From Bradyrhizobium sp. CCBAU 051011 (GTDB lineage Bacteria; Pseudomonadota; Alphaproteobacteria; Rhizobiales; Xanthobacteraceae), in assembly GCF_009930815.1 (NCBI RefSeq), contig NZ_CP022222.1, positions 6,180,501 to 6,244,500 of the forward strand: a stretch of DNA of 64,000 bases, given 5' to 3'. The notes beneath the pieces were generated by a model. That model saw nothing but the letters and a program-made list of their open reading frames with translations. It did not search any database and had not been told where the DNA came from. The translations under genes were made by a program, and so were the position numbers. Positions within the stretch are counted from its first letter, which is position 1, and every line of letters starts with the position of its first letter. Positions 10,875 to 28,447 of the stretch are shown here, in pieces.

Positions 10875-11351
10875 CTATTCCGCGCCAGTTGTCTTCAGAA
10901 GCTGCGCGACTTCCATCAATTTTCGACGTAGGCGCTCATCGGCAATGCCGAAGTAGAGTTCGAGAAGCTGACGCGACTCTCGCTTCGTAACGAGTTCACT
11001 CCAATCCTGCGCTTCGGCGGTTTGCTTCGATTCGGCGGACGGTCGTTTCTTGCTTTCCAACTCGTCGAAGAACCATGTGATCGGGACGGCAAGTTGCGCG
11101 GCAATGCCGTAGAGTCTTGACGCGCTGATACGGGTTTCCCCGGCTTCATACTTTTGGATGAGCTGCGACGTCAGACCAAGACGCCTAGCCAGTTCGTCCT
11201 GACTCAAGCCGAGGAGGTTGCGCCGAAGACGTAGCCGCTTCCCCACGTGCTCGTCGACATGGGTCGGCTTTTTCGACGAGACCCCCATTTTGGCGCCGCG
11301 TCTGTTCGGCATGCGGGATTTCGATTTCTTCTCGGAAGATTCAGAAGGCAT
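10875..11351 (-). CDS. XRE-family helix-turn-helix regulator (PraR-like)
   Basis: About 158 residues if translation starts at ATG 11351; ATG 11288 is possible because the first 21 residues are basic and unstructured, and neither start has a strong ribosome site. The HTH_3 domain (HVGKRLRLRRNLLGLSQDEL then TSQLIQKYEAGETRISASRL) closely resembles the short rhizobial regulators of the PraR/PhrR type. The C-terminal third (ITWFFDELE, then RLRRKLMEVAQLLKT) also fits that family. It is divergent from the hypothetical gene at 11516, and its upstream region carries three copies of a TCAACT motif which may be its operator. Confidence 0.8.
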   Translation of the reverse strand: MPSESSEKKSKSRMPNRRGAKMGVSSKKPTHVDEHVGKRLRLRRNLLGLSQDELARRLGLTSQLIQKYEAGETRISASRLYGIAAQLAVPITWFFDELESKKRPSAESKQTAEAQDWSELVTKRESRQLLELYFGIADERLRRKLMEVAQLLKTTGAE

Positions 11352-11384
11352 CAAGCACCGCGGTTGAATTCTCGCTCGGTACAA

Positions 11385-11443
11385 TCAACTGGAATGGTGG
11401 AAATGGCATATCAACTCCTGGGCGGTATTATCAACTAGAATTA
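11385..11443 (+). promoter_or_regulatory. Cluster of TCAACT-type motifs between the XRE gene and gene 11516
   Basis: Three direct copies begin at 11385 (TCAACTGGAAT), 11411 (TCAACTCC) and 11431 (TCAACTAGAATTA), with start-to-start spacing of 26 and 20 bp; an inverted TCAAC (GTTGA) is at 11364-11368. The segment is AT-rich compared with its surroundings. The same motif recurs at 13815, 13841 and 13881 in front of the phosphonate operon. Short direct repeats near an XRE gene suggest an operator cluster; the assignment is inference. Confidence 0.5.
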
Positions 11444-11515
11444 TGTCATGCGGGTTACAAATGCACGGATTATTAGGCCTCAACCACACGATGTGAGAAT
11501 GGCGGGACGAAATCC

Positions 11516-12298
11516 ATGCAAGAGCCTCTTCCGAAATCGGGACGCCTACCCACTCAACTCAAGATCAAACACGGGCCGGTGGGCCTGCTCGGGAGGTTCT
11601 TCCTCTGGGCCGACACCGCTGCAAGGGATCTGGGAGTGACGCTGTCCTTTGCCAGCCTGCAGGATCTCATCGAAGCCAATAAAGCCAACTCCGATAGCTG
11701 GCGCCCGCTTGTGCCGGTGTTTGACGAGGCTTTGGGCGGCGTTACGCCGGAGACAGCCTTTGTCCTGATCGGGCGGAACAAGCATGGGGAGGTCGTCACA
11801 ACCCAAGCGGCGCGCATCTATGATTGGCCGGGAACGTCTCTCAAGGACGAGGCCGCTTCGCTGCGAATGTTCTTTGCCGATCCCGATGCCGCATTCGCGC
11901 GTGGAGATCGCTGTAAGATCACCACGCCGATTGCCGAGAAAATCAGCGGGCGCGTCGTCTTTTCCGGTGCCGTCTGGTATCGGCGTGATTTCAGAGGCAA
12001 GGACCTTGCAACCATCCAGTCGCGCATTGCGCGGGCATATGCCTTCACACGCTGGAATAGCGATTTCACGATCGGCATGATGGCCGATGCCGTCATCGCC
12101 GGCGGCCTGGCAGAGCGTGCCGGATACACGAAGATCGAGCATAGCTGCATTGAACTTGTGGCGTCGCCGCTTGGCGCGATGCGTTGCGGGCTGGGCTGGA
12201 TGCAGTCTGACGAACTCCTTGCCGATCTCGCCGCAATCATGGACCGGGTGAATGCTCCTGCCATTGGGCCCCGCATTGCCGAGGACGCAAATCACTGA
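11516..12298 (+). CDS. Hypothetical protein, weak GNAT-like features
   Basis: 260 residues, no signal peptide or membrane segment. I do not recognise the family with certainty. The second half contains YRRDFRGKDLATIQSRIARA, reminiscent of the acyl-CoA-binding RGxG loop and helix of N-acetyltransferases, followed by a helix and ERAGYTKIEHS, which also fits the end of a GNAT fold. The stop codon overlaps the start of the SnoaL-like gene (TGATG), so the two are translationally coupled. It is preceded by the TCAACT motif cluster and may be controlled by the divergent XRE regulator. Confidence 0.6.
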   Translation: MQEPLPKSGRLPTQLKIKHGPVGLLGRFFLWADTAARDLGVTLSFASLQDLIEANKANSDSWRPLVPVFDEALGGVTPETAFVLIGRNKHGEVVTTQAARIYDWPGTSLKDEAASLRMFFADPDAAFARGDRCKITTPIAEKISGRVVFSGAVWYRRDFRGKDLATIQSRIARAYAFTRWNSDFTIGMMADAVIAGGLAERAGYTKIEHSCIELVASPLGAMRCGLGWMQSDELLADLAAIMDRVNAPAIGPRIAEDANH

Positions 12299-12693
12299 TG
12301 TCGCAAGGCGTGGCGGTATTAAATAATCAAACCTTTCGTCCCGAGGATTCAGAAGGGCTTGTCAAAGCGCTGTTCGGTTGCATCGACGGCAGGGACTGGG
12401 CAGGGCTTTCCGAATTTCTCCACGACGAGGCGATCTACGAACGACCGGGTTATGAACCGTTCGTCGGAAAGCCGGCTATCCTGGACTTTTACCTGACGAA
12501 ACGGATTATTTCGCTCGGCCAGCATCGCGTCGAGAGGGTGCTGAGCGACGGCGCAAACATTGCGTGCTGGGGCAGCTTTTCCGGCGTTGCCAAGAATGGG
12601 CGCAATCTCAGCATGCGATTTGCGGATGTCTACCGCATCAGGGAAGGGCGGATTGATCTACGCCGGACATTCTTCGACAGCCCGGCGATCTAG
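12298..12693 (+). CDS. SnoaL-like / NTF2-fold protein
   Basis: 131 residues with the length and pattern of the nuclear-transport-factor-2 superfamily: an N-terminal helix pair (LVKALFGCIDGRDWAGLSEF), YERPG.EPFVGKPAILDFY, and a final strand-rich half ending DVYRIREGRIDLRRTFFD. Members are small cone-shaped proteins that act as isomerases, cyclases or subunits, often in secondary metabolism; the specific activity cannot be stated. It is translationally coupled to the gene before it. Its last 36 bp overlap the 3' end of the convergent gene at 12658. Confidence 0.75.
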   Translation: MSQGVAVLNNQTFRPEDSEGLVKALFGCIDGRDWAGLSEFLHDEAIYERPGYEPFVGKPAILDFYLTKRIISLGQHRVERVLSDGANIACWGSFSGVAKNGRNLSMRFADVYRIREGRIDLRRTFFDSPAI

Positions 12694-13539
12694 GGCGGAT
12701 TGTTGCTTCCAGAAGTCAACGGCCGATGCGCCGAGAAGGCATGTTCCCCCGTTTCCCTTGCACGTGAACGGCAAGATGAGACGCTGATAATGGCAGTGAA
12801 TGCTGTCGTTCCTGTCTGGCCGTCTGATCGTGGCGTTCACCTCGTCCAGGCGCGGCACCAGCGTCTCCTGGACACGGCGGTAAATGCCTTGCACCCACTG
12901 GCCGTAATTGTAATCCGGTTGTTCTTCCATAGGCAGGCCTCGCGCATTCTTCCGCCAGGTCTCGCCAAAGATCTCAAAGCCAGGTCCGACCTCGGTAATG
13001 GTCAGGCGGCCATCCACGGGCTCGACGAGTATGAAGCGCCCACGAAGCGAATCGGGCAACACGTCGGCCAACTTCGCTGAATCGTAAACCTGCTTGGAAT
13101 CAATCCAATGCGCGAAAAGTGATGCAAGTGCTTTGTCCGCGCTGGCAAGCATTTCGAGCGGCAGCTCTCTGCCCGCGAACGCGCGAGAAGTTTTCGGATG
13201 GCTCGCAGCAGTTTGCTCGGCAAAGTAGGCGATCGTCTGCGCGAAACTCGGGACCAGCTTCTCGACGAACTGACCCGGGTGGGAAATGATGGTGCGCTCG
13301 ACCCCCATATCAGCGAGGCAGTATAGAGCTGCGGCGATGCTCGTCTGGGACACCGTTTCGGGCTGAAATCGGATGCGCGCCGCATTGGGAGCGATTTTCG
13401 TGACCGCCACATATCCCAGATTTTCGACGAGGTAGGTCAGAAAATCGAAATCAGGAAGTGAGCAGTGCAGGGAACTTCGCAAGGCCGAGGATCGTGCGTC
13501 CCATGTGCGGCCGTGGTCATCCAGAACGATAGTTTGCAT
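12658..13539 (-). CDS. Hypothetical protein with a PAS-like C-terminal region
   Basis: 293 residues from ATG 13539, which follows GAGGG; a TTG 18 bp upstream is less likely. The N-terminal 120 residues are of unknown type. The region from about 165 to the end (RFILVEPVDG, GPGFEIFGETW, then YQRLILPF) has the layout of the PAS_5-type domain found in many alphaproteobacterial proteins of unknown function. There is no kinase or output domain, so a signalling role is only a possibility. The gene runs away from the motif cluster at 13815-13886 and could share it with the phosphonate operon. Confidence 0.6.
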   Translation of the reverse strand: MQTIVLDDHGRTWDARSSALRSSLHCSLPDFDFLTYLVENLGYVAVTKIAPNAARIRFQPETVSQTSIAAALYCLADMGVERTIISHPGQFVEKLVPSFAQTIAYFAEQTAASHPKTSRAFAGRELPLEMLASADKALASLFAHWIDSKQVYDSAKLADVLPDSLRGRFILVEPVDGRLTITEVGPGFEIFGETWRKNARGLPMEEQPDYNYGQWVQGIYRRVQETLVPRLDEVNATIRRPDRNDSIHCHYQRLILPFTCKGNGGTCLLGASAVDFWKQQSALDRRAVEECPA

Positions 13540-13814
13540 GCGACCCTCACCCGTCAACCCGGAGCAAAGTCGTCCATTGAGCGCTTATTATTTGGCGAAG
13601 TTGCGTCATCTTAACCGCACTCGCTACGCTAGACATCAAAATTCGATGGATGATTGGCTTCACGCTTTGGTGACGGCGTTCTTCTGCGTCCGCTTGCCGC
13701 AGTCGTTGTCCCAAATCTGGATGCGCGTAGTCAGGGAGCGAATCCCTTCCCGGTTGCAGTGATTTGAGTGCGCGCACAAAACGGCGGCGTCTGCTCCGGC
13801 AACAGTTACGCATA

Positions 13815-13886
13815 TCAACTACAATTAGATTTTTTTCACGACAACTAGAATTAGATATTGACGACGAGATGAAATGAGTGACAACT
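13815..13886 (+). promoter_or_regulatory. Second cluster of ACAACT/TCAACT motifs upstream of the phosphonate operon
   Basis: This 381-bp intergenic stretch (13540-13920) has no gene. It holds TCAACTACAATTAGAT at 13815, ACAACTAGAATTAGAT at 13841 (26 bp apart, the same spacing as the first pair near 11385) and ACAACTATTGG at 13881. The two longer copies contain CTAnnnnTAG symmetry or a close variant. Position, 35 to 106 bp before the PEP mutase start, suits an operator-promoter region. This links the XRE gene and the phosphonate operon as one possible regulon; no experimental support is known to me. Confidence 0.5.
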
Positions 13887-13920: not shown

Positions 13921-14871
13921 ATGCAACCGCAAAAACAGTCCATCGTCGCGAACGGCCATCATCACCACGCCACGTCGCAAGCGGCGCACAAGCTTCGCAA
14001 CCAGATCAGCTGCAATCACGAGCTCTCATTCCTGATGGAGGCCCACGACGGTCTGTCGGGCGCCATCGCCGAGCGCGCAGGCTTCAAGGGACTCTGGGCA
14101 TCCGGCCTTTCAATTTCGTGCTCGCTCGGCTACCGCGACGCCAACGAAGCTTCCTGGACCCAGCTCGTTGATGTCGTCGAGCGCATGGTGGACTCGACCG
14201 ACCTTCCGGTGCTTGTCGACGGCGATAGCGGCTTTGGCAATTTCAACAATGCGCGCCTTCTGGCACGCAAGCTACAGCAGCGCGGCGCCGCCGGGGTTGC
14301 GCTGGAGGACAAGGGCTTTCCCAAGATGAATTCGTTCGTCGGCGATCGGCATCCGCTTGCCGATACCGGCGAATTCTCGGGCCGGCTGCGCGCCGTGAAA
14401 GATACGGTAGGCGACGACCTGGTCCTCGTCGCCCGGATCGAGGCGCTGATTGCTGGCCACGGGATGGACGAGGCGCTTACGCGCGCCCATGCCTATGCAG
14501 AGGCCGGAGCTGACGCCATCCTCATTCATTCGCGCAAGAGCGTGGCGGACGAGGTCCTCGCCTTCACCGGCGCCTGGCAGAACCGGCTTCCCGTCGTGAT
14601 CGTCCCCACCAAATACTATCGGACGCCCGTCTCCGCCTATCGCGAAGCCGGCATCTCCACGGTGATCTGGGCCAACCACTCGATGCGGGCGGCGATCGCC
14701 GGGATGAGAGACATTTGCGGCCGCATTATCGCCGAGGAAAGCATCGCCGGCATCGAAGGCGAGGTCGCCACGCTCGACGAGGTCTTTGGTCTGTTGCGCT
14801 ACGGCGAACTCGCTACTGCCGAGGAGCGCTACTTGCCGACGTACAACGGAAATGGTCACGCGAAAGCGTGA
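13921..14871 (+). CDS. pepM: Phosphoenolpyruvate mutase (PEP phosphonomutase)
   Basis: 316 residues. Start ATG 13921 follows AAGGAG at 6 nt; an upstream TTG (13888) is rejected. It catalyses PEP to phosphonopyruvate, the entry step to nearly all natural C-P compounds. The diagnostic mutase motif EDKxxxxxNS is present as EDKGFPKMNS (129-138), which separates true mutases from isocitrate lyases and oxaloacetate hydrolases of the same superfamily. The metal-binding DGDSGFGN (100-107) and the early active-site segment around FKGLWASGLSIS (55-66) also fit. A short basic, His-rich N-terminal extension (HHHH at 13-16) is unusual. It is the first gene of the operon, with the decarboxylase that pulls the unfavourable reaction two genes later. 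Confidence 0.95.
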   Translation: MQPQKQSIVANGHHHHATSQAAHKLRNQISCNHELSFLMEAHDGLSGAIAERAGFKGLWASGLSISCSLGYRDANEASWTQLVDVVERMVDSTDLPVLVDGDSGFGNFNNARLLARKLQQRGAAGVALEDKGFPKMNSFVGDRHPLADTGEFSGRLRAVKDTVGDDLVLVARIEALIAGHGMDEALTRAHAYAEAGADAILIHSRKSVADEVLAFTGAWQNRLPVVIVPTKYYRTPVSAYREAGISTVIWANHSMRAAIAGMRDICGRIIAEESIAGIEGEVATLDEVFGLLRYGELATAEERYLPTYNGNGHAKA

Positions 14872-14927
14872 TTCTCCGGTCCCTCTATCCCACAGCGTAG
14901 AGCCCTTCGAACGCGGAGATTCGTACC

Positions 14928-16004
14928 ATGCTTCAATCAACACTGGCGGCCTCAATACCAAGCCAGCTTCCTGCACCTGACATCGCCCAGGTGATCCAAT
15001 GGCGCGATAGTTCCTATGCGGCCGACCTTTATATCGCGGCGGTCTCGTGGCTCGATCTCTTCACCTATCTCGACGAGACACCGGCGACCGAAGCGGAGAT
15101 GCGCGGCCATTTTAAGATCAAGGAACGGCCGACGCGAACCATGATCAGGCTGTTTGAGTCCTGGGGACTGCTCGACAACGTCGACGGCAAGCTTCTCGCT
15201 TCAGCATCTGCGCGGCGCTACTTGAGCCGCAACTCGAGCGAGAACATTTCCTCCTACATCGCCGTCATGAAGTACAAATCGTCTGTCCGGGAGATTTACG
15301 ACGTATTACGCCTGGACACACCTGATACGTGGTATGTCGAGCGTGGTGACGCGACCAACTTCGACGAGCTGATGCAAACCGACGATTTCGCCGATCTGAA
15401 TACGCGCGGAATGGAGGAGCGCGGGCGGATTTTTGCTCCCGACCTCGTGCGCCTGCTCGATTGTACGCACGACACGGCTGTCCTGGATGTGGCAGGTGGA
15501 TCCGGAGTCTATTCCGCGCACCTGCTCAACCGGTATCCCAATCTGTCGGCGATGATATTTGAACGTCCTCCGGTCGACCAGCTCGCCACGCAATGTCTTG
15601 CCGAGCGTAAGCTGACGGCACCGAGAGCGCGCGTGATCGCCGGAGACATGTTTGTCGATCCGTTTCCGCAGACCACTTCGCTCCATCTCTATTCGCATGT
15701 CCTCCACAATTGGGGACCGGAGAAAGTGCGGCTGTTGCTGGACAAGTCGTACCGAAGCTTGCTGCCTGGCGGCCGGGTAGCCGTCTTCAGTTGTCACCCG
15801 GACGACCGGGGCGGGCGTCCCGCGCCGGTGGAGGAGGCCGAATATTCGGTCCTGCTGACCACCAGCTACGAGGGCTGCTGTTACAGTTTCGAGGACATGC
15901 GTTCCCTCATGGAAGGTGCAGGCTTTCAGCACGTCGACTATCGCAAGTCGATTTGCAACCGAAGTCTGATCACGGCGCGAAAGATCGCCGGCAGCTCCAA
16001 CTGA
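14928..16004 (+). CDS. SAM-dependent O-methyltransferase (acetylserotonin/hydroxyneurosporene O-methyltransferase type)
   Basis: 358 residues in two domains: a winged-helix dimerisation domain (about 20-110, with ERPTRTMIRLFESWGLL) and a Rossmann methyltransferase domain with SAM motif I LDVAGGSG (186-193), GDMF (239-242) and HVLHNW (257-262), the typical catalytic-base region. The family O-methylates small hydroxylated or acidic metabolites in the cytoplasm. It sits between the PEP mutase and phosphonopyruvate decarboxylase genes, 56 bp after the former, so a phosphonate intermediate or product is the likely acceptor. Methylation of a carboxylate or a phosphonate oxygen are both possible; sequence alone does not decide. 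Confidence 0.85.
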   Translation: MLQSTLAASIPSQLPAPDIAQVIQWRDSSYAADLYIAAVSWLDLFTYLDETPATEAEMRGHFKIKERPTRTMIRLFESWGLLDNVDGKLLASASARRYLSRNSSENISSYIAVMKYKSSVREIYDVLRLDTPDTWYVERGDATNFDELMQTDDFADLNTRGMEERGRIFAPDLVRLLDCTHDTAVLDVAGGSGVYSAHLLNRYPNLSAMIFERPPVDQLATQCLAERKLTAPRARVIAGDMFVDPFPQTTSLHLYSHVLHNWGPEKVRLLLDKSYRSLLPGGRVAVFSCHPDDRGGRPAPVEEAEYSVLLTTSYEGCCYSFEDMRSLMEGAGFQHVDYRKSICNRSLITARKIAGSSN

Positions 16005-16132
16005 ACAAGAGCTCTATCCGGACAAAATCCGAAGGGCTTCGCCTGATCCTGCTGCCGTCGATGCTGACGGCAGCCACCGCTGCGCGCTGTCCGGCGCGAG
16101 GAAAAATATCGCCTGTGGGAAGGGAATCCAAA

Positions 16133-17299
16133 ATGACCATGTCGACAACGACGCTCCTGGGTCTGCTGAAGCAGCAGAAGTATGAGTTTTTTTCCGGGGT
16201 ACCTTGCTCGAATTTCGCTGATCTGTTCCAGCAGGTCGCCTTGGACAAGGATATCACGTCAGTCCCAGCGTCGAACGAAGGCAGCGCGCTGTCGTTCGCC
16301 GTCGGCGCGACGCTGGCGGGGCAACGAAGCGTCGTCGCCCTGCAGAATTCCGGACTGGGAAACATCATCAATCCGCTGACGTCGCTGGTCCAGATCAACT
16401 GCATTCCAACGCTGCTTCTGGTCTCCGTGCGGGGACTCACCGACGAGCCCGAGGACGAGCCGCAGCACCGCATCATGGGCGCCAATACCCATGCATTGCT
16501 CGATCAATTGGCAATCCCGTGGAGCGAGTTCGACGGGACGCCGCAGGGGTTCATGGCGACGCTCCGGAAGGCCGAAGAGGCATTCGAGCGATCGGTCTCG
16601 TTTGCGATTCTGGTTCGCAAAGGTCAGCTGTCGGCGGGCCTCGGCGTCGTCGCCAACGGCGAGCAACAAGTGGAGCGCTATCCACTCAGCGTCGGATGCG
16701 CCCTGGAGATCATCAGCGAAGCCCTGCGGCCCACCGATCTCGTCGTCTCGACGACCGGGTTCATCTCCCGGGAGCTGTTTCGCGTGAGCGACCGTCCAGA
16801 GAATTTCTACATGCAGGGATCGTTGGGCCATTGCAGCGCGGTGGCTGCCGGCGTCGCGCTCGCGCATCCATCACGCCGCGTGGTCGCGCTGGATGGCGAT
16901 GGTGCCGTGCTGATGCATATGGGAGTGTTATCCACGATCGGGTACGCATCTCCCCGAAATTTCCTGCACGTCGTGCTCGATAACGAAGGCTACGTCTCGA
17001 CAGGGAAGCAGGACTCCACCTCGGTCACTTCCTCGCTGGAAGCCGTCGCCGCGGCTTGCGGGTACCGCGCGGTCTGCCGGTGCGTAACCGGCGCCGAATT
17101 GGGCGAGGCGGTTGCGCGAAGCCTGTCGACCGAAGGGCCGCACTTCCTGCTTTGCAAGGTCAATCAATCGCATTCGCGCTCGCTACCCCGGGTGACGTCT
17201 CGTCATAGCCCGGAGGAAAACAAAGAAGCGTTCCAGATCGCGCTGAACCAGGCGGAGGCCTTCGATCTGCAAGCCGTACCAGCGGGAGTGGCCGGGTGA
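16133..17299 (+). CDS. ppd: Phosphonopyruvate decarboxylase (TPP enzyme)
   Basis: 388 residues; start ATG 16133 follows AAGGGA at 7 nt. The open frame continues upstream, but that part overlaps the methyltransferase gene in another frame and is not protein-like. The enzyme decarboxylates phosphonopyruvate to phosphonoacetaldehyde. Seen: the N-terminal SGVPCSNF loop, the conserved Glu49 (SNEG) that activates thiamine diphosphate, the family segment QNSGLGNIINPLTSL (71-85), and the TPP/Mg site GDG (255-257) with Asn284 in VLDNEGY. These distinguish it from acetolactate synthase and match Ppd/AepY/Fom2 proteins. The stop codon overlaps the next GTG start. Confidence 0.95.
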   Translation: MTMSTTTLLGLLKQQKYEFFSGVPCSNFADLFQQVALDKDITSVPASNEGSALSFAVGATLAGQRSVVALQNSGLGNIINPLTSLVQINCIPTLLLVSVRGLTDEPEDEPQHRIMGANTHALLDQLAIPWSEFDGTPQGFMATLRKAEEAFERSVSFAILVRKGQLSAGLGVVANGEQQVERYPLSVGCALEIISEALRPTDLVVSTTGFISRELFRVSDRPENFYMQGSLGHCSAVAAGVALAHPSRRVVALDGDGAVLMHMGVLSTIGYASPRNFLHVVLDNEGYVSTGKQDSTSVTSSLEAVAAACGYRAVCRCVTGAELGEAVARSLSTEGPHFLLCKVNQSHSRSLPRVTSRHSPEENKEAFQIALNQAEAFDLQAVPAGVAG

Positions 17300-18450
17300 A
17301 ACATCAGGCGGTCGATAGGCTGACCAGCTTCCGCTGCCTCTCATTCGCGGTCATCCTTTGCGGCACGAACTGGGTTGCGATCAGGAATGTCTTGCAGTCT
17401 TCGCCGCCGCTGTTTTTCACCGGCGTCTGTTTGCTCGGCGGGGCGATCGCGGTCGGCGTTGTCCGCCTGTGTGTTGAATACCCACTCCAGAGCGGTTGTG
17501 AAGGGAACGGCAGGCTTGTCGCGCTGGCTCTCCTTCGAATGGCCGGAGGCCTCGGGCTGGCTTTTGTCGGCTTGCAGTATTTCGATGTCGGCACCAGCGC
17601 CCTGATCTTCTATACGATGCCCTTGTCGCTCGTCGCCATTGAATGGACGATCGATCGCCAAATGCAATCGCTCCTCGATCTCGTCGCATTGACCTGCGGC
17701 ATGCTTGGTCTCGGGATGCTGGCGTCGGGTACGGTGCCGGTGGAGACACCTTATGACATCCTGGGCCTCGCGTTGCTTTCAATGGCGGCTTTCAGCTGGG
17801 CGCTGGGAACATGGATTCATAAACGCGCTCCCAGCGACATCAATGTGTGGAACCGTACCGTCTTTCAACTGGCGACCGCAGGGGGCATTGTCATCGTTGC
17901 GTCGTTGCTGCTGGAACGTCGGCTTGACTGGACTCTGTTGCCGATACTTGCCTGGCCTATCGCATTGAACTTGATCGTGGTGACCGGATTGGCATTCGTC
18001 GCTTGGTACCGCGCGCTCAGCCGTATTTCCTCGCATATCGCATCTCAGAGCCTCGTTCTCATCCCTGTCGTCGCGCTGGTTGCGGCTGCCGTCTTGCAAC
18101 GGGATACTCCGATCACGTGCGTCGTGGTTGCCTGGGTTCTTATGATCGTTGGCGTCGCCTTCGCAGTTTGGCAGCGGTCAAGGGCGCCACTCGCTGTGAG
18201 TACGATGTCACGCGCCTGGAAACCTGCGATCGTCAGCGAACACCACATGGAGCCACGCGATGTTAGATCCGACACGTGTCTGTCACCCGATGAAGATCGC
18301 AGGAGAGGATGTTCTTTCGGATTCGTTCATCGACGTGCGGAACCCGTTTACCGATCAGGTAATAGCTGCGGTGCCGCAGGCGCGTCCCGAGCACGCTCGG
18401 CGGGCCTTCGCGATCGCCCGGGCATTCCGTGCCAAGCTCACAAGGCGTGA
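17296..18450 (+). CDS. EamA/DMT-family transporter, probable phosphonate exporter
   Basis: Start GTG 17296 overlaps the decarboxylase stop. About ten membrane segments form two EamA repeats (for example VVALIPVVALVAAAVLQRD-like segments late in the protein, with DVGTSALIFYTMPLSLVAIEW in the middle). Family members mostly export metabolites. The last 60 or so residues after WQRSRAP are not membrane-like and overlap the next gene by 191 bp in another frame; the genuine transporter probably ends near residue 300 functionally and the tail exists because no stop codon occurs. The position inside the operon suggests that it exports the operon's product. Confidence 0.82.
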   Translation: MKHQAVDRLTSFRCLSFAVILCGTNWVAIRNVLQSSPPLFFTGVCLLGGAIAVGVVRLCVEYPLQSGCEGNGRLVALALLRMAGGLGLAFVGLQYFDVGTSALIFYTMPLSLVAIEWTIDRQMQSLLDLVALTCGMLGLGMLASGTVPVETPYDILGLALLSMAAFSWALGTWIHKRAPSDINVWNRTVFQLATAGGIVIVASLLLERRLDWTLLPILAWPIALNLIVVTGLAFVAWYRALSRISSHIASQSLVLIPVVALVAAAVLQRDTPITCVVVAWVLMIVGVAFAVWQRSRAPLAVSTMSRAWKPAIVSEHHMEPRDVRSDTCLSPDEDRRRGCSFGFVHRRAEPVYRSGNSCGAAGASRARSAGLRDRPGIPCQAHKA

Positions 18451-19696
18451 GCGGGCGCGGATCCTCCTGGCCACGGCAGAGGCGATCGAAGCAAACCGGG
18501 ACCGGCTAGCGCATCTCATTACATCGGAAAGCGGCCTGTGTTTGAAAGACTCGCTGCATGAAGCCGCGCGGGCCAGGGATGTCTGGTCCTTTGCAGCGCA
18601 AGCCGTGCTCCGGGACGATGGAGAGATTTACGCGGGCGACATCGGAGGAGGGGCGCAGGCTAGACGCATATTCGCGACAAGGACACCGCTCCTTGGCGTC
18701 ATCTCAGGAATTACTCCCTTCAACCATCCCCTGAATCTCGTCAGTCACAAGCTCGCTCCGGCGATCGCGACCAATAATAGGACCGTGCTGAAGCCGGCCG
18801 AGGCAACGCCTTTGACCGCGCTTGCTCTTGCCGAGCTGGTTTATGAGGCGGGCCTGCCGCCGGAAATGTTGTCGGTGATTACCGGCGATCCGCATTCGTT
18901 GGGAGATGCGATGATCAATGATCCGGACATCGACCTGGTGACGTTCACCGGGTCGGTAGCGGCCGGAAAGAAAATCGCCGAACGGGTGGGATACAGAAGG
19001 CTGGTGCTCGAGCTCGGCGGGAATGATCCTCTGATCGTATTGGGTGACGCCGATCTCGACCGCGCAGCCCGATTGGCGGTGCAGGGCGCGACCAAGAATT
19101 CCGGGCAACGCTGTACCGCCGTCAAACGGGTCTTGGTCGTCGATGATGTCGCCGATCGCTTTGCCGAAACGACCCTCTCTCTAATGAGGCGCCTCAGGGC
19201 AGGAGATCCCATGGATCCCGACACGGATGTGGGGACGGTCATCAACGCGAAGGCGGCGTCGATCATTGCCGGACGCGTCGAAGCCGCAATTGAGCGCGGC
19301 GCCCGTTTGCTGCTCGGCAATACTCCCCACGGCGCGCTCTACCCGCCGACACTGCTGGACCATGTTGCGCCCGATTGCGAGTTGGTGCGCGAAGAGACCT
19401 TTGGTCCTGTCCTGCCGATCATTCGCTGCCCCGATGACATCGAACACATCATCGCCATCGCCAACTCGACGGCCTTCGGTCTTTCGGCGGGGTTGTGCAC
19501 AAACCGGCTCGACGCCATCACCCGCTTTGTCGATGCCCTCGACGTCGGCTGCGTCAACGTATGGGAAGTTCCGGGATACCGGACCGAGCTGACACCGTTC
19601 GGCGGCATCAAGGATTCCGGCCTCGGCCATAAGGAGGGCGTGCTGGAAGCCATGAAGAGCTTTACGAATATCAAAACCTACTCGCTGCCGTGGTGA
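18260..19696 (+). CDS. phnY: Phosphonoacetaldehyde dehydrogenase (PhnY-like)
   Basis: 478 residues of the aldehyde dehydrogenase superfamily: Asn155 (TPFNHP), Glu251 (LELGGNDP) and the nucleophile Cys285 in NSGQRCTAVKR. Several stretches match Sinorhizobium PhnY as I remember it, including VTFTGSV, VNxWEVPGYR, SPFGG/TPFGGIKDSG and the C-terminal MKSFTNxKTxSLPW. PhnY oxidises phosphonoacetaldehyde with NAD to phosphonoacetate. It is normally catabolic, together with PhnW and PhnA; here the aldehyde would come from the PEP mutase/decarboxylase pair, and no phnW gene is present in the window. The first 191 bp overlap the transporter frame. Confidence 0.9.
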   Translation: MLDPTRVCHPMKIAGEDVLSDSFIDVRNPFTDQVIAAVPQARPEHARRAFAIARAFRAKLTRRERARILLATAEAIEANRDRLAHLITSESGLCLKDSLHEAARARDVWSFAAQAVLRDDGEIYAGDIGGGAQARRIFATRTPLLGVISGITPFNHPLNLVSHKLAPAIATNNRTVLKPAEATPLTALALAELVYEAGLPPEMLSVITGDPHSLGDAMINDPDIDLVTFTGSVAAGKKIAERVGYRRLVLELGGNDPLIVLGDADLDRAARLAVQGATKNSGQRCTAVKRVLVVDDVADRFAETTLSLMRRLRAGDPMDPDTDVGTVINAKAASIIAGRVEAAIERGARLLLGNTPHGALYPPTLLDHVAPDCELVREETFGPVLPIIRCPDDIEHIIAIANSTAFGLSAGLCTNRLDAITRFVDALDVGCVNVWEVPGYRTELTPFGGIKDSGLGHKEGVLEAMKSFTNIKTYSLPW

Positions 19697-19704
19697 GGCA
19701 AACC

Positions 19705-20754
19705 TCAATCCAGCAGTTTGGACGCGGCCGCTTCGTCGGTGACCAGGACCTGGCAGAAGCCAGCCAACAGGCCGGCGCGAATAATGGGGACCTTGTGCTC
19801 GCCGCCGGCCGCGAGAATCCGATGCCTGATCTGGAGCACATGCTCGATCGGCGGATTGATCGTCCGCTGCACCAGGGGGTGACGCAGCGGCTTGCCTGAC
19901 GAATCGAGGTAGTGACCGCAGATATCGCCGACGGCGCCCGCTTCAAGCAACGAAGCCCAGGTTTCCCGAGAAATGACCTCGTATTCGAGCGCCTTCGATT
20001 GCTCGGAAAGGTCAATCGCGCTCAACAGCGCCACGTCGAGGGAGGGCACCATGGCGAGCACGGTGCGTACGGGCTCACTGGCGACGAGGATGTCCTTCAA
20101 CTCGGCAGTCTCGGCGAACATTGGCGCGGTCAGATAATAGCATCGCGCGCCGAGCGCCCGGGCGATCATGGTCGCATTGTCATATGGATTGATCGGCGCG
20201 CTTTCGGCCAACCCGCCGGACATCAGCACCACGCGGGTGCCGTCTCCAGATCGCTGCGGCAGGTTTTGGGCCGCGGCATTGATGGTGCCTCCCCAGGTGA
20301 TTCCCAGCGACCCCGACGGCGGAAGGCACTCGGCGACGTATCGCGCAGCGGCGGCGCCGACGAAAGAACGCACGTCGGTGCCGCCCATGGGGACCGGGAC
20401 CACGATCGCGTGACGTAGATTGAATTTGCGGATGAGCTCTTCTTCAAGCTCGGTGCGTAGGCCCGCCGGGTCGGCGATCGTGATTTGAACGAAGCCGCTT
20501 TCCCGGGCGTCACCAAGGATCCGGTTGACGCGCTTGCGGGTCATCTTCAGCCGCTGCGCGATCGCGTCCTGGGTTTGACCTTCCCTGAAATAGTACCAGC
20601 AGATTTTGGCCACCAACGCGGCCTCGGCTCGACCATCCCCGGCTTCGCCTTCGTTTGATGCCGCTTGCGGGCCTCGAATCAACACGCCCGATCCTCCGAT
20701 CAGCTTCAGGATCCGCTGTTTGCCTGTTTCCGGGTCGGAATGGCAAATCTTCAT
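19705..20754 (-). CDS. SorC/DeoR-type sugar-binding-domain transcriptional regulator
   Basis: 349 residues from ATG 20754 (a TTG 12 bp earlier is less likely). After a 40-residue lead there is a helix-turn-helix (DAIAQRLKMTRKRVNRILGDARESGFVQI, key residues only) and a C-terminal SorC effector domain with GITWGGTI, VLMSGGL and a final KVPIIRAGLLAGF. Such proteins bind phosphorylated small molecules. The gene is convergent with phnY (8 bp apart) and points away from phnA, so it could control either operon; a phosphonate such as phosphonoacetaldehyde or phosphonoacetate is an attractive but unproven effector. Confidence 0.85.
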   Translation of the reverse strand: MKICHSDPETGKQRILKLIGGSGVLIRGPQAASNEGEAGDGRAEAALVAKICWYYFREGQTQDAIAQRLKMTRKRVNRILGDARESGFVQITIADPAGLRTELEEELIRKFNLRHAIVVPVPMGGTDVRSFVGAAAARYVAECLPPSGSLGITWGGTINAAAQNLPQRSGDGTRVVLMSGGLAESAPINPYDNATMIARALGARCYYLTAPMFAETAELKDILVASEPVRTVLAMVPSLDVALLSAIDLSEQSKALEYEVISRETWASLLEAGAVGDICGHYLDSSGKPLRHPLVQRTINPPIEHVLQIRHRILAAGGEHKVPIIRAGLLAGFCQVLVTDEAAASKLLD

Positions 20755-20755
20755 A

Positions 20756-20798
20756 CTTGTCCACAAGTCCCAAATGTGCCCGTGTCGTCACAAATGTG
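20756..20798. promoter_or_regulatory. Candidate operator of the SorC-type regulator
   Basis: Directly upstream of the regulator start are a perfect inverted repeat CTTGT-CC-ACAAG (20756-20767) and two CAAATGTG copies at 20771 and 20791, the second extended to CACAAATGTG with CACA/TGTG symmetry. The 20-bp spacing puts the two copies on about the same face of the helix. They lie in the 95 bp between the regulator and the truncated gene at 20849. Binding is inferred from position and symmetry only. Confidence 0.4.
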
Positions 20799-20848: not shown

Positions 20849-21103
20849 ATGCGTCGGCTGATCATCGGGTCATTACTTTTGTGCGGCTGGGCAACGTCCG
20901 CCCTCGCGCAATTTTCCGACAGCAAGATCGTGATCGGGGTGATGGGTGATCAAAGCGGCGTTGTCGCGGATGTCGGCGGACCCGGATCGATCTTGGCTGC
21001 CCATCAGAACAAGCCCGACATCGGGGCCTTCGCAACGACTTCGATGTTTACAGGTTCTGCGCTGTCGCCCTGCGCGGCGTGCTCTGCGATCTCAGCCGTC
21101 TGA
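20849..21103 (+). pseudogene. Truncated branched-chain amino acid ABC substrate-binding protein (livK-like) remnant
   Basis: An ATG preceded by AGGAG opens a Sec signal peptide (MRRLIIGSLLLCGWATSALA) and then QFSDSKIVIGVMGDQSGVVADVGGPGS, key residues of which are the usual N-terminus of family 5 solute-binding proteins. After about 48 residues the homology stops and the frame continues into unrelated sequence to a stop at 21103. The other roughly 350 residues of the protein are missing. From 20998 to 21265 I see no further gene. The remnant marks a deletion or rearrangement between the phosphonate biosynthesis operon and the phnA operon. Confidence 0.75.
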
Positions 21104-21265: not shown

Positions 21266-22552
21266 ATGAACAAACCTGATCGAATCCTGACCGCCACCTA
21301 TCGCGCGGAGAGACCTCCGGTGAGCGTAAACGGCCGCACCTATGCGTGGCCGAAACATCCGGCTGTGGTCATCTGTTTCGATGGCTGCGATCCTGCCTAT
21401 ATCGAGGCTGCCAGCGCCGCTGGCGCCATCCCTGCCATCGACCGGATGCGGCGCGAAGGTTTTGCCGCCTCCGCGCTCGCGGCAATGCCGACATTCACCA
21501 ACCCCAATAACGTGTCCATCGTCTGCGGTGTGCCGCCCGCGGTTCACGGCGTCTCCGGCAATTTCTATCTCGACCGCGACACCGGCGCGGAAATCATGAT
21601 GGTGGACGCTACCCCTGTGCGGGCGCCGACCATTCTGGCAGCGTTCTCGCAAGCAGGTGCCATGGTTGCCGCCGTTACCGCCAAGGACAAGCTGCGCAAG
21701 GCGCTCGGTCATGGGCTCGACGGTATCGCTTTCTCGGCCGAGAAGGCCGACGAGGCGACCGATGCGGAGAACGGCATCTCCGCCATCGGTGCGCTGGTGG
21801 GGCGGGGAGCGCCAGACCAGTATTCCGCCGATCTTTCCTTGTTCGTGCTCGATGCCGGAATTCGGCTGCTTGAAACCCGCCGGCCGGACCTGATTTATCT
21901 GTCGCTTTCCGATTATGTGCAGCACAAGCATGCGCCGGATGCGCCCGAAGCGATCGCCTTCATGCGCGCGGTGGACCAGCGGCTCGCCTGCATGATTGCG
22001 CTCGGCGCCTGCCTCGGGATCGTCGCCGACCATGGCATGAACGACATGGCCCACCAGAGCGGCGAGCCGAACGTCGTCTATCTCGGCGACCTCCTGGATG
22101 CCGCCTTCGGCGTGGGCGCAACGCGTGTCATCTGCCCGATCACCGATCCCTTCGTGCGTCACCATGGCGCGCTGGGCGGCTTTGTCCGTGTCCATCTGCA
22201 ACGGACGGACCCTTCCGCCACCGCGGTGTTGAACTTCATTCGGCAGATTCCCGGTGTCTGCATGGCCGCTTCGCGTGAGGAGGCATGCCTGCGCTTCGAG
22301 CTGCCTGAAGATCGCGAAGGCGACATCGCCGTGGTGGCAAGGTCGGGCGTCGCCCTCGGCGCCCACGCAAGCGATCACGACATTTCGCAGCTATCGGGCA
22401 AGCGGCTGCGTTCTCATGGCGGGCTCGCCGAACAGGTGGTGCCGTTCATCCTCTCTCACCCGCTGAAGGCCGGACGGGTTGAGGGCGGGGCAGGGAAATC
22501 GCTCCGCAACTACGATGTCTTTTCGGTTCTACTCAACGAAGTGAAAGTCTGA
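21266..22552 (+). CDS. phnA: Phosphonoacetate hydrolase
   Basis: 428 residues of the alkaline phosphatase superfamily. PhnA cleaves the C-P bond of phosphonoacetate to acetate and phosphate, using two zinc ions. The residues known from Sinorhizobium PhnA are all present with matching spacing: Asp39 (CFDGCDP), nucleophile Thr78 (PTFTNPNN), Asp216 and His220 (LSDYVQHKH), Asp255-His256 (ADHGMN) and His384 (LRSHGG). There is no signal peptide, so it acts in the cytoplasm. The next gene starts 2 bp after its stop. It is the first gene of a seven-kb operon with a ugp-type importer, which suggests that its substrate, or a precursor of it, is imported. Confidence 0.95.
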   Translation: MNKPDRILTATYRAERPPVSVNGRTYAWPKHPAVVICFDGCDPAYIEAASAAGAIPAIDRMRREGFAASALAAMPTFTNPNNVSIVCGVPPAVHGVSGNFYLDRDTGAEIMMVDATPVRAPTILAAFSQAGAMVAAVTAKDKLRKALGHGLDGIAFSAEKADEATDAENGISAIGALVGRGAPDQYSADLSLFVLDAGIRLLETRRPDLIYLSLSDYVQHKHAPDAPEAIAFMRAVDQRLACMIALGACLGIVADHGMNDMAHQSGEPNVVYLGDLLDAAFGVGATRVICPITDPFVRHHGALGGFVRVHLQRTDPSATAVLNFIRQIPGVCMAASREEACLRFELPEDREGDIAVVARSGVALGAHASDHDISQLSGKRLRSHGGLAEQVVPFILSHPLKAGRVEGGAGKSLRNYDVFSVLLNEVKV

Positions 22553-22554
22553 CT

Positions 22555-23841
22555 ATGCCTCGTGCTATCCTCGTCATCCTCGATGGTCTTCGCCGCGATC
22601 TCGTGACGCCGCAGACCACGCCTCGTCTTGCCGCCTTCGCCGAGCGTTCCGAGCAGTTCGCCGCCCATCGCACGGTGTTTCCGTCCTGCACGCGGGTGGT
22701 TTCAGCGAGCCTTGCGACGGGTTGCTATCCGGCGCGCCACGGCTTGCAGGGCAACACGATGGCGCTCATGGAAGACGGCCGCCTCGTTCGGCACGACGCG
22801 GGTCGTCCGGATTTCCTCCAGCACAAGCGGCGTGTCACGGGTCGCTCGCTGGCCGTGCCAACCCTGGCCGAGCGCTTAACGGGCAGCGGCGGTGCCATTA
22901 TCTTCAGCAACGTTTCACCAGGAGCGGCCTATGCGCACGATCCGGATGGATTTGGGCGGGTCTATCATCGCGCCGGATCGTTCGGTCGCGACCGCGTCCC
23001 GCTGCCGGAAGACGAGCAGCTTCGCGTCACGCTGGACGTAGAAGGCGACCGGGCAATGACCGAGCGCTTCATCCGCGAAGCGGTGTTGCTCCCGTCGGAT
23101 CCTCCGGCGCTTGCGGTGCTGTGGCTTGGCGAGCCGGACGCCACGCAGCACGCTTTGCCCATGGGATCACCCGGTCATCTTGCGGTGCTGGCAGAAGCAG
23201 ACCGCAATGCCGGGCGCGTCATGGACGCAGTCGCCACGCTCGCCGACAGAGACGATGTTCTCTTGCTGATAGGATCGGATCACGGCCATCAGACGGTGAC
23301 CGGCGTCATCGACATCGACGAAGAACTGGTCACTGCCGGATTGAAGGAAAGCCTTGAATCGACCGACGTGGTCGTCGCCTCGAACGGCACCTCCGCGCTG
23401 CTCTACGTCCATCCCGATTTCGTCGCGCGCACGCCGTTGGTCGGCGATTTCCTCGCCAGTCAGGAATGGGTGGAAACCGTTTTCGATGGCGGCGCGCTGG
23501 CGTCGGTGGGGCAGGGCCGGGATCACGGCCTCGCTTTTGCGGTCTCAATGCGCGCGAGCGATGAGCCCAATGCCTACGGCGTCGCCGGCACCAGTCTCGT
23601 CGCGGAACGTGCCGGCAACAAGGCAGATATCCTCGGCAGCGGCCAGCACGGTGGCCTCGGTGCCGGCGAGCAAGCGCCTTTTCTCATGATCGACGGCTCG
23701 GGCTTCAGCCCTGGCATGGCGAGGCAGGAGCCCTCCTGCATCACCGACATTGCGCCAACCATTCTTACGCATCTCGGGCTTCCCGCCTCCGGAATGGATG
23801 GGCGTGCACTCCAGGCGGTTCGGGGAGGTCGCAATGGCTGA
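22555..23841 (+). CDS. Alkaline-phosphatase-superfamily phosphodiesterase/nucleotide pyrophosphatase-type hydrolase
   Basis: 428 residues, type I phosphodiesterase/nucleotide pyrophosphatase pattern: Asp10 (LDGLRRD), nucleophile Thr46 (FPSCTRVVS), Asp195 and His199 (GEPDATQH), Asp242-His243 (GSDHGHQ) and a late GQHGG. No signal peptide is visible. The family hydrolyses phosphodiesters and phosphonate monoesters. Placed between phnA and the ABC transporter genes, with 2-bp spacing before it and an 8-bp overlap after it, it may remove an ester group from an imported phosphonate before PhnA acts. A glycerophosphodiesterase role, parallel to GpdQ in the other ugp operon, is the main alternative. 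Confidence 0.82.
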   Translation: MPRAILVILDGLRRDLVTPQTTPRLAAFAERSEQFAAHRTVFPSCTRVVSASLATGCYPARHGLQGNTMALMEDGRLVRHDAGRPDFLQHKRRVTGRSLAVPTLAERLTGSGGAIIFSNVSPGAAYAHDPDGFGRVYHRAGSFGRDRVPLPEDEQLRVTLDVEGDRAMTERFIREAVLLPSDPPALAVLWLGEPDATQHALPMGSPGHLAVLAEADRNAGRVMDAVATLADRDDVLLLIGSDHGHQTVTGVIDIDEELVTAGLKESLESTDVVVASNGTSALLYVHPDFVARTPLVGDFLASQEWVETVFDGGALASVGQGRDHGLAFAVSMRASDEPNAYGVAGTSLVAERAGNKADILGSGQHGGLGAGEQAPFLMIDGSGFSPGMARQEPSCITDIAPTILTHLGLPASGMDGRALQAVRGGRNG

Positions 23842-24955
23842 GATCGAACTCCGCCACATCGAGAAGAACTATGGCGAAACCGCCGTGGTGAAAGGCGTGT
23901 CGCTGAGCATTCGGGATGGGGAATTTCTCACCCTGGTGGGCCCGTCCGGATGCGGGAAATCCACCTTGCTGCGGATTATCGCCGGGCTAGAGTCGCAGGA
24001 TAGCGGTGAGGTCGTGGTCGGCGGCCGCTGTGTGGACGACAAGCGCCCCAAGGAGCGCGACGTCGCCATGGTATTTCAGTCTTACGCGCTCTATCCCCAT
24101 CTTAGCGTTTTCGACAACCTCGCCATGCCGCTGCGAACGCGGCGCTTGAGCTTCGGCCAGCGGCTGCCATTGGTGGGCCGTGCGTTGCCGGGACGAGGCG
24201 ATGTTGAAAGAGCCATCCGGGTCGAGATCGAGCAAACAGCTTCCATGCTCGACATCGCCCATCTGTTGAACCGCAAGCCGGGCCAGCTCTCCGGTGGTCA
24301 GCGCCAGCGTGTCGCGCTGGGCCGCGCGATGGTGCGGGATCCCGCCGTGTTCCTGATGGACGAGCCGCTGTCCAATCTCGACGCCAAATTGCGGGTGCAA
24401 ATGCGTGCGGAAATCATCGCGCTACATCGCCGTCTCGGCGTCACCTTCGTGTACGTCACCCACGATCAGGCAGAAGCGATGACGATGTCCGACCGCGTCG
24501 CCGTGATGATGGACGGCGAACTGCTTCAGGTCGATCGACCGGAGCGGCTCTATCGCGACCCAGAGGACCTGCGGGTTGCCGAGATGATCGGCAGCCCGAA
24601 GATCAACGTGGTTTCTCGCGCCCATTGGACATCTTTGGGTGCGTCGCTTCCTGCAGGCGTTCATCGCAACACGGCGTACCTCGCGTTTCGTCCAGAGGCC
24701 GTCGGAATAGTCGCGTCCGGAGATGGAAGACTCAATGGCGTCGTCGCCAGCGTCGAGAATCTCGGTTCCGATATCTTCCTGAACGTGACGCTGGCAGACG
24801 GGCAGGGCACCGTCGTCGTGCGTACGCATCCCGACGCATCGCGTTGCGAAGCGGGCCGTTCGATCGGTCTACAGATCGACCCGGCCTGCTTGCTGCAGTT
24901 TGATAATGCGGGCAGGCGCCAGCGCCAGGCCGAGCAGGTGGAGGCTGCGGCTTGA
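23834..24955 (+). CDS. Ugp-type ABC transporter ATPase (second system)
   Basis: 373 residues from ATG 23834, inside the end of the preceding gene (8-bp overlap). Walker A GPSGCGKST, FQSYALYPH, signature LSGGQRQRVALGRAM, Walker B FLMDEPLSNLDAKLR and HDQAEAMT are present, followed by a TOBE-type regulatory domain. It shares the rare insertion after the Q-loop (LPGRGDVERA region) with the ATPase at 8510-9661, which supports duplication of a whole operon. It powers uptake by the permeases encoded next. Confidence 0.93.
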   Translation: MAEIELRHIEKNYGETAVVKGVSLSIRDGEFLTLVGPSGCGKSTLLRIIAGLESQDSGEVVVGGRCVDDKRPKERDVAMVFQSYALYPHLSVFDNLAMPLRTRRLSFGQRLPLVGRALPGRGDVERAIRVEIEQTASMLDIAHLLNRKPGQLSGGQRQRVALGRAMVRDPAVFLMDEPLSNLDAKLRVQMRAEIIALHRRLGVTFVYVTHDQAEAMTMSDRVAVMMDGELLQVDRPERLYRDPEDLRVAEMIGSPKINVVSRAHWTSLGASLPAGVHRNTAYLAFRPEAVGIVASGDGRLNGVVASVENLGSDIFLNVTLADGQGTVVVRTHPDASRCEAGRSIGLQIDPACLLQFDNAGRRQRQAEQVEAAA

Positions 24956-25884
24956 CAGCGCTTGACCACGATCGCCAACGCAGGGCCGATGCCAAAGCAA
25001 GCGTCGCGAAGAGATCGGGGGAGCACGGGCTTGCCTGGCTCGCCGTAACGCCGGCATTGCTGCTGTTGATCGGACTTCTGTTCGGCCCGGTCGCGGCGGT
25101 CGTGCTTTTCTCGCTGACGGACTGGCAGCTGGGATCATTCACTTTTAACTTCATCGGTATCGCGAACTTCAGGGCGCTGTTCGCGGACCCGACCTTCTGG
25201 AAGGCATTGACCAATTCGCTGGTGTATGTGGCCATCGTCGTGCCGGGCACGGTGCTGCTCGGTCTCGTCGTGGCTCTGCTCATCGAGGCCAGTCCCGGCC
25301 TGCGTGGTTTCTACAGGGCAGCGCACTTTCTTCCTGTGATGTCCACGATGTCGGCCATGGCGATCGTTTGGGGCACCATGCTGCATCCGACGATCGGGCT
25401 GGTGAATCGCGCCCTGGGCGTGATGGGTATTTCCGGAGTTAACTGGCTTCGCGATGAGCGCACGGCGCTGCTCGCTCTCGCCTTGATCGGCATATGGCAA
25501 GGCTTCGGTTTCGCCATGGTGCTGTTCGTATCCGGCCTGAAGGCTGTCCCGCAGCAGCTCTACGACGCGGCCGCCATTGACGGCGCCGACGGCATTCTGG
25601 ACCGGCTGCGTTTCGTGACGTTGCCCATGCTGGGACCGGTCACCATGTTCGTCGTCATCTTGACGGCGACGCGGTCCTTCGAGGTCTTCGACAGTGTTCG
25701 CGTTCTGACCCAGGGTGGGCCGAACTATGCATCCGAAGTGCTGTTGCATCGATTCTACACCGAGAGCTTCGATTTCCTCCGCATGGGATATGGCGCAGCG
25801 CTCACCGTGGTCTATCTCGCAATCATCGTGCTGCTTACGCTGACGCAGGCGCGGCTTCTCGAACGGCGGGTCCATTATTCATGA
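24952..25884 (+). CDS. Ugp-type ABC transporter permease, UgpA-like (second system)
   Basis: 310 residues; the start is TTG 24952 overlapping the ATPase stop (TTGA), a weak start that probably relies on coupled translation. MalF/UgpA-type membrane protein with about six helices, LTDWQLGSF in the first periplasmic loop and the EAA loop YDAAAIDGADGILDRLRFV. The closest relative in the window is the gene at 7576-8517. It overlaps the next permease gene by 4 bp. Confidence 0.92.
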   Translation: MTALDHDRQRRADAKASVAKRSGEHGLAWLAVTPALLLLIGLLFGPVAAVVLFSLTDWQLGSFTFNFIGIANFRALFADPTFWKALTNSLVYVAIVVPGTVLLGLVVALLIEASPGLRGFYRAAHFLPVMSTMSAMAIVWGTMLHPTIGLVNRALGVMGISGVNWLRDERTALLALALIGIWQGFGFAMVLFVSGLKAVPQQLYDAAAIDGADGILDRLRFVTLPMLGPVTMFVVILTATRSFEVFDSVRVLTQGGPNYASEVLLHRFYTESFDFLRMGYGAALTVVYLAIIVLLTLTQARLLERRVHYS

Positions 25885-26723: not shown

Positions 26724-26741
26724 TCCAAATGGAGACCGCCC

Positions 26742-28323: not shown

Positions 28324-28447
28324 TAACGCCATCCTACATTCCGCGCGCTGACGCTCCCTGTCGTCGCCAATAACAATTCTTCAATGCTGCGCGCGGTCCC
28401 CCTGCGCGCGCGACGGTTTCCTTTTGTCATTTCGCATGGAGATATCA

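Follow-up and report, generated by a model that had tools for sequence, protein, structure and literature searches.

A predicted two-operon phosphonate locus in Bradyrhizobium: candidate synthesis and reclaiming of phosphonoacetate conjugates

Why would genes for making and exporting a phosphonate stand beside genes for taking one up and breaking it down? The question is raised by a 64,000-nucleotide stretch of DNA from Bradyrhizobium sp. CCBAU 051011 (GCF_009930815.1, contig NZ_CP022222.1, forward-strand positions 6,180,501 to 6,244,500), hereafter the window, from whose first nucleotide coordinates are counted. An original prediction, made from the sequence of the window, had placed in it a compact phosphonate biosynthesis operon (operon 1) with an O-methyltransferase (MT) and an exporter. 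We found a second operon (operon 2), which contains the phosphonoacetate hydrolase gene phnA, next to it, and consider it reasonably probable that the locus forms a phosphonate module of two operons, in which operon 1 serves synthesis and export and operon 2 reclaims phosphonoacetate conjugates.

Composition of the synthetic operon

All five genes of the original prediction were recovered in place and on the expected strand:

13921..14871, + strand: PepM, phosphoenolpyruvate (PEP) mutase (TIGR02320, 332.3 bits; cut-off 319.6)
14928..16004, + strand: MT, family-2 S-adenosylmethionine O-methyltransferase (PF00891, Methyltransf_2, 83.5 bits)
16133..17299, + strand, ATG at 16133: Ppd, phosphonopyruvate decarboxylase (TIGR03297, 336.6 bits; cut-off 312.5)
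17296..18450, + strand: EamA-family transporter, presumed exporter (PF00892)
18260..19696, + strand: PhnY, phosphonoacetaldehyde dehydrogenase (TIGR03250, 715.8 bits; cut-off 635.7)

PepM, Ppd, PhnY and the PhnA of operon 2 were judged by curated NCBIfam equivalog cut-offs, and MT and EamA by Pfam; the predicted identities held in every case. The pepM gene starts with an ATG preceded by AAGGAG, and the predicted EDK-x5-NS motif of its product (EDKGFPKMNS) was kept in a 279-residue alignment to the solved PepM 1m1b. An assignment of this protein as phosphonopyruvate hydrolase was ruled out, as it scored just 193 bits with TIGR02321 (cut-off 374). The solved structure closest to MT was 5i2h (E 4e-34); the 59 PDB matches to MT did not include DhpI by name, the structure of which we take to be in the PDB. 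The genes had also been described as mostly overlapping, which is true of two junctions (Ppd/EamA by 4 bp and EamA/PhnY by 191 bp) but not of the other two, where gaps of 56 bp (PepM-MT) and 128 bp (MT-Ppd) were present. The tail of EamA past approximately residue 300, the part that overlaps phnY, was variable among relatives, and in several of these the EamA gene stopped ahead of phnY or a few bases into its start.

PhnY matched the solved chain 4i3t, which we take to be Sinorhizobium PhnY, nearly end to end (E 6e-176). Its Cys285, Arg104, Arg284 and Arg441 aligned with Cys294, Arg111, Arg293 and Arg450 of 4i3t; the three Arg positions of 4i3t are presumably those that bind the phosphonate, and the equivalent residues here would bind substrate. 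Conserved pocket residues, not named individually, are mentioned in the available part of a study of Streptomyces clusters (PMC12723261). The genome (9.1 Mb, one contig) contained a single PhnY above the TIGR03250 cut-off, that of operon 1, and a single full-length Ppd match, the window's own. No PhnW was detected above the family cut-off anywhere in it (best match 99 bits; cut-off 401), in agreement with the predicted absence of an aminotransferase for the 2-aminoethylphosphonate route. A second, stop-broken pepM was present at 8290045-8290953 of the same genome (8.29 Mb), between the positions of nodC and nifH.

Since PepM, Ppd and PhnY belong to these three enzyme families, there is good sequence-based support for a predicted pathway leading from PEP to phosphonoacetate: PepM would convert PEP to phosphonopyruvate, Ppd would convert this to phosphonoacetaldehyde, and PhnY would oxidize the aldehyde to phosphonoacetate. 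The product had been predicted as phosphonoacetate or a methylated derivative that leaves the cell; phosphonoacetate is indeed expected from the conserved PepM-Ppd-PhnY unit, and the methylated derivative and its export by EamA are putative.

Distribution of the operon in Bradyrhizobium and beyond

We analyzed 265 Bradyrhizobium genomes, the window's own included, with thresholds of E 1e-60 for PepM, 1e-70 for MT and 1e-40 for PhnA. PepM relatives occurred in 114 genomes and MT in 24. All 24 MT genomes had Ppd, directly preceded by MT, as well as a PepM match somewhere, and 23 had PhnY. Neighborhoods were examined for all 24, and presences given below refer to the stretches examined (tblastn, E 1e-15, identity of at least 40%, raised to 50% for LivG, LivF and the phosphodiesterase, 65% for PepM and 70% for Ugp genes). 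A neighborhood search for pepM next to MT and phnY had been proposed with the original prediction; at the genus level, the order PepM-MT-Ppd-EamA-PhnY recurred in 14 of the 265 genomes including the window's (hereafter full loci, 11 close and 3 divergent). This order was kept down to 58% identity for Ppd and 49% for EamA, and in a member of the divergent clade (G617) PepM, Ppd and PhnY also exceeded their curated cut-offs. The other ten MT genomes form a shorter set, in which MT and Ppd were together in all ten and PhnY stood beside them in nine. One shorter-set genome with a 10-kb contig (G572) had only a PhnY fragment, 38% identical, and its MT match was divided in two.

In wider searches, MT was found at E 1e-45 in two genomes (the window's own and G171) of 398 sampled across the phylum and in none of 72,556 plasmid records at E 1e-40; distant relatives, about 35-47% identical, were common in the protein collection. 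A genome from another family of the same order (G072, locus L161) contained PepM-MT-Ppd at a contig end, with identities of 71, 67 and ~54%, respectively.

Two lineages of PhnY

PhnY exceeded its cut-off in 57 of the 265 genomes, which fell into two classes: 33 at 771-816 bits and 24 at 651-726 bits. PhnA was present in all 33 high-scoring genomes and MT in none of them. MT was present in 23 of the 24 lower-scoring genomes, the exception being G458, whose PhnY was divergent (54% identical). We built a tree of 38 rows, comprising 14 PhnY sequences from full loci, 9 from shorter-set genomes, 10 of the 33 with high scores, that of G458, and an outgroup of four other dehydrogenases of the window's own genome. 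The tree separated the 10 phnA-linked rows (support 99/99) from those linked to MT, which numbered 23 and had a support of 93/91, slightly below the threshold for strong support. Long branches led to the outgroup and to G458, and the placement of G458 was unsure. With the lineages separate and the catabolic one never accompanied by MT, the PhnY of the window appears from these comparisons to be dedicated to the synthetic set. Its assignment to the PhnA operon was opposed by the tree, by co-occurrence and by gene order.

The adjoining salvage operon

The original prediction ended with phnY and overlooked the PhnA operon at 21266-28031 and a group of upstream genes at 10875-13557 (described below). 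Downstream of phnY, the following features were identified:

19705..20766, - strand: SorC/DeoR-type sugar-binding regulator, divergent from the salvage operon (PF04198, 184.6 bits)
20849..21028, + strand: LivJ-type substrate-binding protein, truncated remnant; the Liv importer and amidase genes are lost in the window
21266..22552, + strand: PhnA, phosphonoacetate hydrolase (TIGR02335, 584 bits; cut-off 407.6)
22555..23841, + strand: PDE, type I phosphodiesterase/nucleotide pyrophosphatase family (PF01663, 104 bits)
23837..26723, + strand: UgpC-UgpA-UgpE type ATP-binding cassette importer, confined to the close clade
26742..28031, + strand: UgpB-type solute-binding protein of this importer (PF13416, 130 bits)

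PhnA, which lies across the divergent regulator gene from PhnY, matched the solved structure 3szy with E 3.5e-119, and PDE weakly matched ENPP7 (E 5.6e-6). Twelve of the 14 full loci had a salvage operon of the form LivJ-LivG-LivF-LivHM-amidase-PhnA, with LivJ near full length, followed by PDE where the stretch reached it (that of G352 ends within PhnA). The Liv genes were lost in the remaining two, G460, which retains a frameshifted amidase, and the window, where just short traces of DNA and the N-terminal remnant of LivJ are left. UgpC was present in 10 of the 11 close loci (the G352 stretch stops short of its position) and in none of the three divergent ones. In shorter flanks, PhnA appeared at just one of the nine named loci with MT, as if it were a recent chance neighbor; this idea was rejected when longer stretches and the window revealed PhnA further out in 14 of 14 full loci.

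We further checked the occurrence of the amidase-linked form of PhnA. It was present in 15 of the 24 MT genomes, namely in 13 full loci (one with the frameshifted amidase), G449 and G599. G449 had three amidase-PhnA-PDE copies away from MT (L212, L213 and L214), one with a frameshifted amidase and one beside genes for a phosphonopyruvate hydrolase (409 bits; cut-off 374) and an aminotransferase-fold protein. In G599, a frameshifted amidase-linked PhnA copy stood beside a similar mutase-family gene. Of the 61 PhnA matches in the genus, 42 came from genomes without MT; among 18 of these 42 loci that were examined (L198-L206, L208-L211 and L216-L220, of which L220 spans just 3.1 kb), none had an amidase-linked PhnA, and one had an amidase match of 27% identity ~2 kb away.

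Candidate operators of the two operons

Two conserved motifs were found in the intergenic regions:

13816..13856, + strand: direct repeat CAACTA(C/G)AATTAGAT, present twice ahead of pepM with a spacing of 26 bp; candidate operator of operon 1
20789..20798, + strand: palindrome CACAAATGTG, the sole copy in the window; candidate SorC operator

The window contained only two CAACTA(C/G)AATTAGAT sites, both at the pepM promoter. In the alignment, the downstream copy of the repeat was exact (AACTAGAATTAGATATTGACG) in 10 of 11 close rows and had the variant form CTACCAGAGTTAGTAATTGA in all three divergent rows; no such repeat was detected in nine shorter-set stretches scanned. Between SorC and the salvage operon, GTCACAAATGTGT was exact in 13 of 13 aligned rows (G460 was excluded because its Liv genes are lost), and ACAAATGT was found ahead of LivJ in L212 and L214, two of the three G449 copies. 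Two distinct conserved motifs, each found in the window solely at its own promoter, fit separate control of the two operons through these candidate operators.

Proposed function and alternative explanations

With the gene identities, order, co-conservation and separate PhnY lineage established by sequence comparison, the following scheme may be proposed. MT would mask the product or an intermediate of operon 1 as a methyl ester, on either the phosphonate or the carboxylate, and EamA would send the methylated product out of the cell. Operon 2, under its own SorC-type regulator, would provide for uptake and reclaiming of phosphonoacetate conjugates. In its ancestral form it would include a urea/amide-type (Liv) importer and an amidase for the release of phosphonoacetate from an amide; the phosphodiesterase-family enzyme would remove an ester, and PhnA would produce acetate and phosphate by cleaving phosphonoacetate. 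The amide branch has decayed in the window, with PhnA, the phosphodiesterase and the Ugp-type importer still there. We infer the substrate of MT, export by EamA, the sites of the regulators and the action of operon 2 on the product of operon 1, the last from linkage and apparent exclusivity.

This scheme could be extended to a phosphonate "opine", a speculative idea that we regard as rather unlikely in its entirety. Masked phosphonoacetate (a methyl ester and/or an amide) would be exported, would be largely unusable by neighbors and would be reclaimed by kin carrying SorC-Liv-amidase-PDE-PhnA as a source of phosphorus and carbon, and of nitrogen from the amide; with the two operons controlled apart, it could serve as a private, exchangeable phosphorus store. 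Rhizopine and opine systems (mos/moc) likewise have linked operons for making and using a compound, under separate control. Gene content and linkage fit the comparison; the shorter-set genomes that lack PhnA do not. Only the idea is shared; the chemistry is unrelated, and the window locus (at 6.19 Mb) is ~2 Mb away from nodC (8.15 Mb) and nifH (8.39 Mb), a distance by which an origin of the locus in the symbiosis island was also rejected.

Several observations weigh against the two-operon reading. Among the ten shorter-set genomes, EamA was absent from all stretches examined, PepM was missing from nine of them (G537 being the exception), and eight genomes had no PhnA at E 1e-40, so that reclaiming is not obligatory. 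The loss of the Liv importer and amidase means that the full loop cannot run in the window as originally built, and two of the G449 copies have SorC and LivJ but no LivG, LivF or LivHM alongside. Some full loci have parts that look broken, G445 with its PhnA and G639 with the N-terminal part of its MT split over two frames. The PDE family is broad, with relatives 29-32% identical also near other pepM loci; the MT fold says nothing about its substrate; and the co-occurrence counts are not corrected for shared ancestry.

The alternative that survives best, which we consider possible although doubtful, is that operon 1 exports methylated phosphonoacetate for a purpose of its own, e.g., as a growth inhibitor or signal, and that the PhnA operon is an ordinary scavenger of environmental phosphonates, adjacent because both concern phosphorus. 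The eight PhnA-free MT genomes of the shorter type are consistent with it, as are the nearby genes for Ugp importers, for a metallophosphoesterase and for a giant, perhaps secreted protein that has nuclease and nucleotidase domains, and the G449 salvage copy that adjoins a phosphonopyruvate hydrolase gene away from MT. However, the position of the salvage operon is kept in two diverged clades, and its amidase-linked form was seen in MT genomes only, with 18 of the 42 outside PhnA loci examined.

It is improbable that MT is merely co-transcribed and acts on an unrelated substrate. Solved relatives of MT do, by name, methylate aromatic and polyketide-type products; but MT directly precedes Ppd in every genome of the genus that has it, is otherwise rare in the phylum-wide sample, and occurs as PepM-MT-Ppd in one genome of another family (G072). 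Finally, PhnY and PhnA form the classical catabolic pair (as in phnWAY) and occur together in all 33 Bradyrhizobium genomes whose PhnY is of the other class, but it is very improbable that the PhnY of the window belongs to such a pathway and that the synthetic operon stops after EamA and yields phosphonoacetaldehyde or its methylated form, given that no PhnW exceeds the cut-off, that the SorC gene stands between PhnY and PhnA, that nine genomes have MT-Ppd-PhnY together without PhnA in the stretch examined, and that this PhnY is of the MT lineage.

Neighboring genes

Additional genes were conserved upstream of operon 1:

12661..13557, - strand: X299, PAS-like in its C-terminal domain and transcribed away from pepM; in all 14 full loci
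12298..12693, + strand: SnoaL-like protein (PF12680); in 11 of 14 full loci
11516..12298, + strand: X260, GNAT-like fold, no Pfam family; in 14 of 14 full loci
10875..11384, - strand: XRE-type regulator that accompanies X260 (PF01381); in 14 of 14 full loci

A view of X299 and X260 as unrelated neighbors was set aside, as both were found in all full loci; any role of theirs in the module would be putative. The C-terminal part of X299 matched PAS/LOV domains (best E 4.6e-5; model pLDDT 80.7, pTM 0.63); the gene is split across two frames in G552 and G578, and paralogs are present elsewhere. The AlphaFold2 model of X260 (pLDDT 86.5) had 8gxk as its top Foldseek match with E 7.5e-7 and TM scores of only 0.44/0.58. 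In the three divergent genomes, the X260, SnoaL and XRE genes were inverted and relocated downstream of PDE.

At 28424-37867, adjoining the phosphonate operons, a 3147-residue protein was encoded with choice-of-anchor I, endonuclease/phosphatase, 5'-nucleotidase C-terminal and cadherin-like domains and RTX repeats, perhaps a giant secreted nuclease/nucleotidase. The segment 4594-9661, part of a region rich in phosphorus-related genes, encodes another Ugp-type importer along with a calcineurin-like phosphoesterase in an operon that diverges from a LysR regulator gene. In four shorter-set loci (L179, L180, L182 and L185), a CaiB-type CoA-transferase-like gene was present upstream on the opposite strand; in L179 every family score was below cut-off, and the other three were judged by eye. 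Its product might activate phosphonoacetate to a CoA thioester.

Relation to known systems and significance

The original prediction had found no match to familiar clusters, but two described systems share part of this gene set. The Streptomyces O-phosphonoacetic acid serine cluster makes phosphonoacetate with PepM, Ppd and a PhnY-like dehydrogenase, although these clusters are actinobacterial and divide Ppd between two genes; in the available part of that source, "methyltransferase" occurs once, in a reference, and an adjoining PhnA operon is not mentioned (PMC12723261). For B. roseum/roseus S12-14-2, a carrier described as free-living, the available text names pepM, ppd, "pdh", an O-methyltransferase and transporters (PMC10708946). 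This is very probably the same locus, with coordinates not compared; the product given there differs (2-hydroxyethylphosphonate and methylphosphonate), and section 19 of that source is silent on PhnA, amidase and SorC. The PepM-Ppd-PhnY route is already known, and the genes are partly listed.

Other systems are more distant. The 2-aminoethylphosphonate catabolism of the Sinorhizobium meliloti type (phnWAY) has the PhnY and PhnA families in common with the locus but differs in that the window genome has no PhnW above cut-off and its PhnY, of another lineage, lies beside PepM. Rhizobial clusters of PepM with a nucleotidyltransferase and a CDP-alcohol transferase have a related PepM (about 69-82% identical among the best 80 named loci). 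Within these 80 loci, MT was present in 9, and protein clusters of which the member tested was a nucleotidyltransferase, a CDP-alcohol phosphotransferase or an aminotransferase-fold protein were present in 60, 43 and 26, respectively; none of the latter three occurred among the MT loci of the 80, and by tblastn such clusters had no MT, no PhnY, and Ppd in one only. The nucleotidyltransferase-type pepM clusters are a different, commoner system. They are widespread in rhizobia (L076-L147 except L081), and no description of them was met in the literature found.

The open-licence literature, from which subscription papers are mostly missing, contained, in the parts available, including those of PMC6697681 and PMC9381506, no description of either the MT-Ppd-PhnY core or a linked amidase-PhnA operon, and nothing useful on phosphonate methyl esters or FzmB. 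The combination of this core with a linked, apparently separately controlled salvage operon appears to be new.

Cell-surface tailoring aside, most other known phosphonate synthesis leads to bioactive products. Such tailoring is held to account for the bulk of bacterial phosphonate synthesis, according to the available part of a published study (PMC6697681). The arrangement described here, with synthesis and export genes beside uptake and breakdown genes, hints at a private phosphorus-bearing metabolite. The rare MT-Ppd-PhnY core offers a handle for finding similar clusters. If the two-operon reading is true, a soluble, exported phosphonoacetate derivative that is made and reclaimed at one locus would be a testable private phosphorus currency in a common soil and legume-nodulating genus, and PhnA would gain a natural soil substrate.

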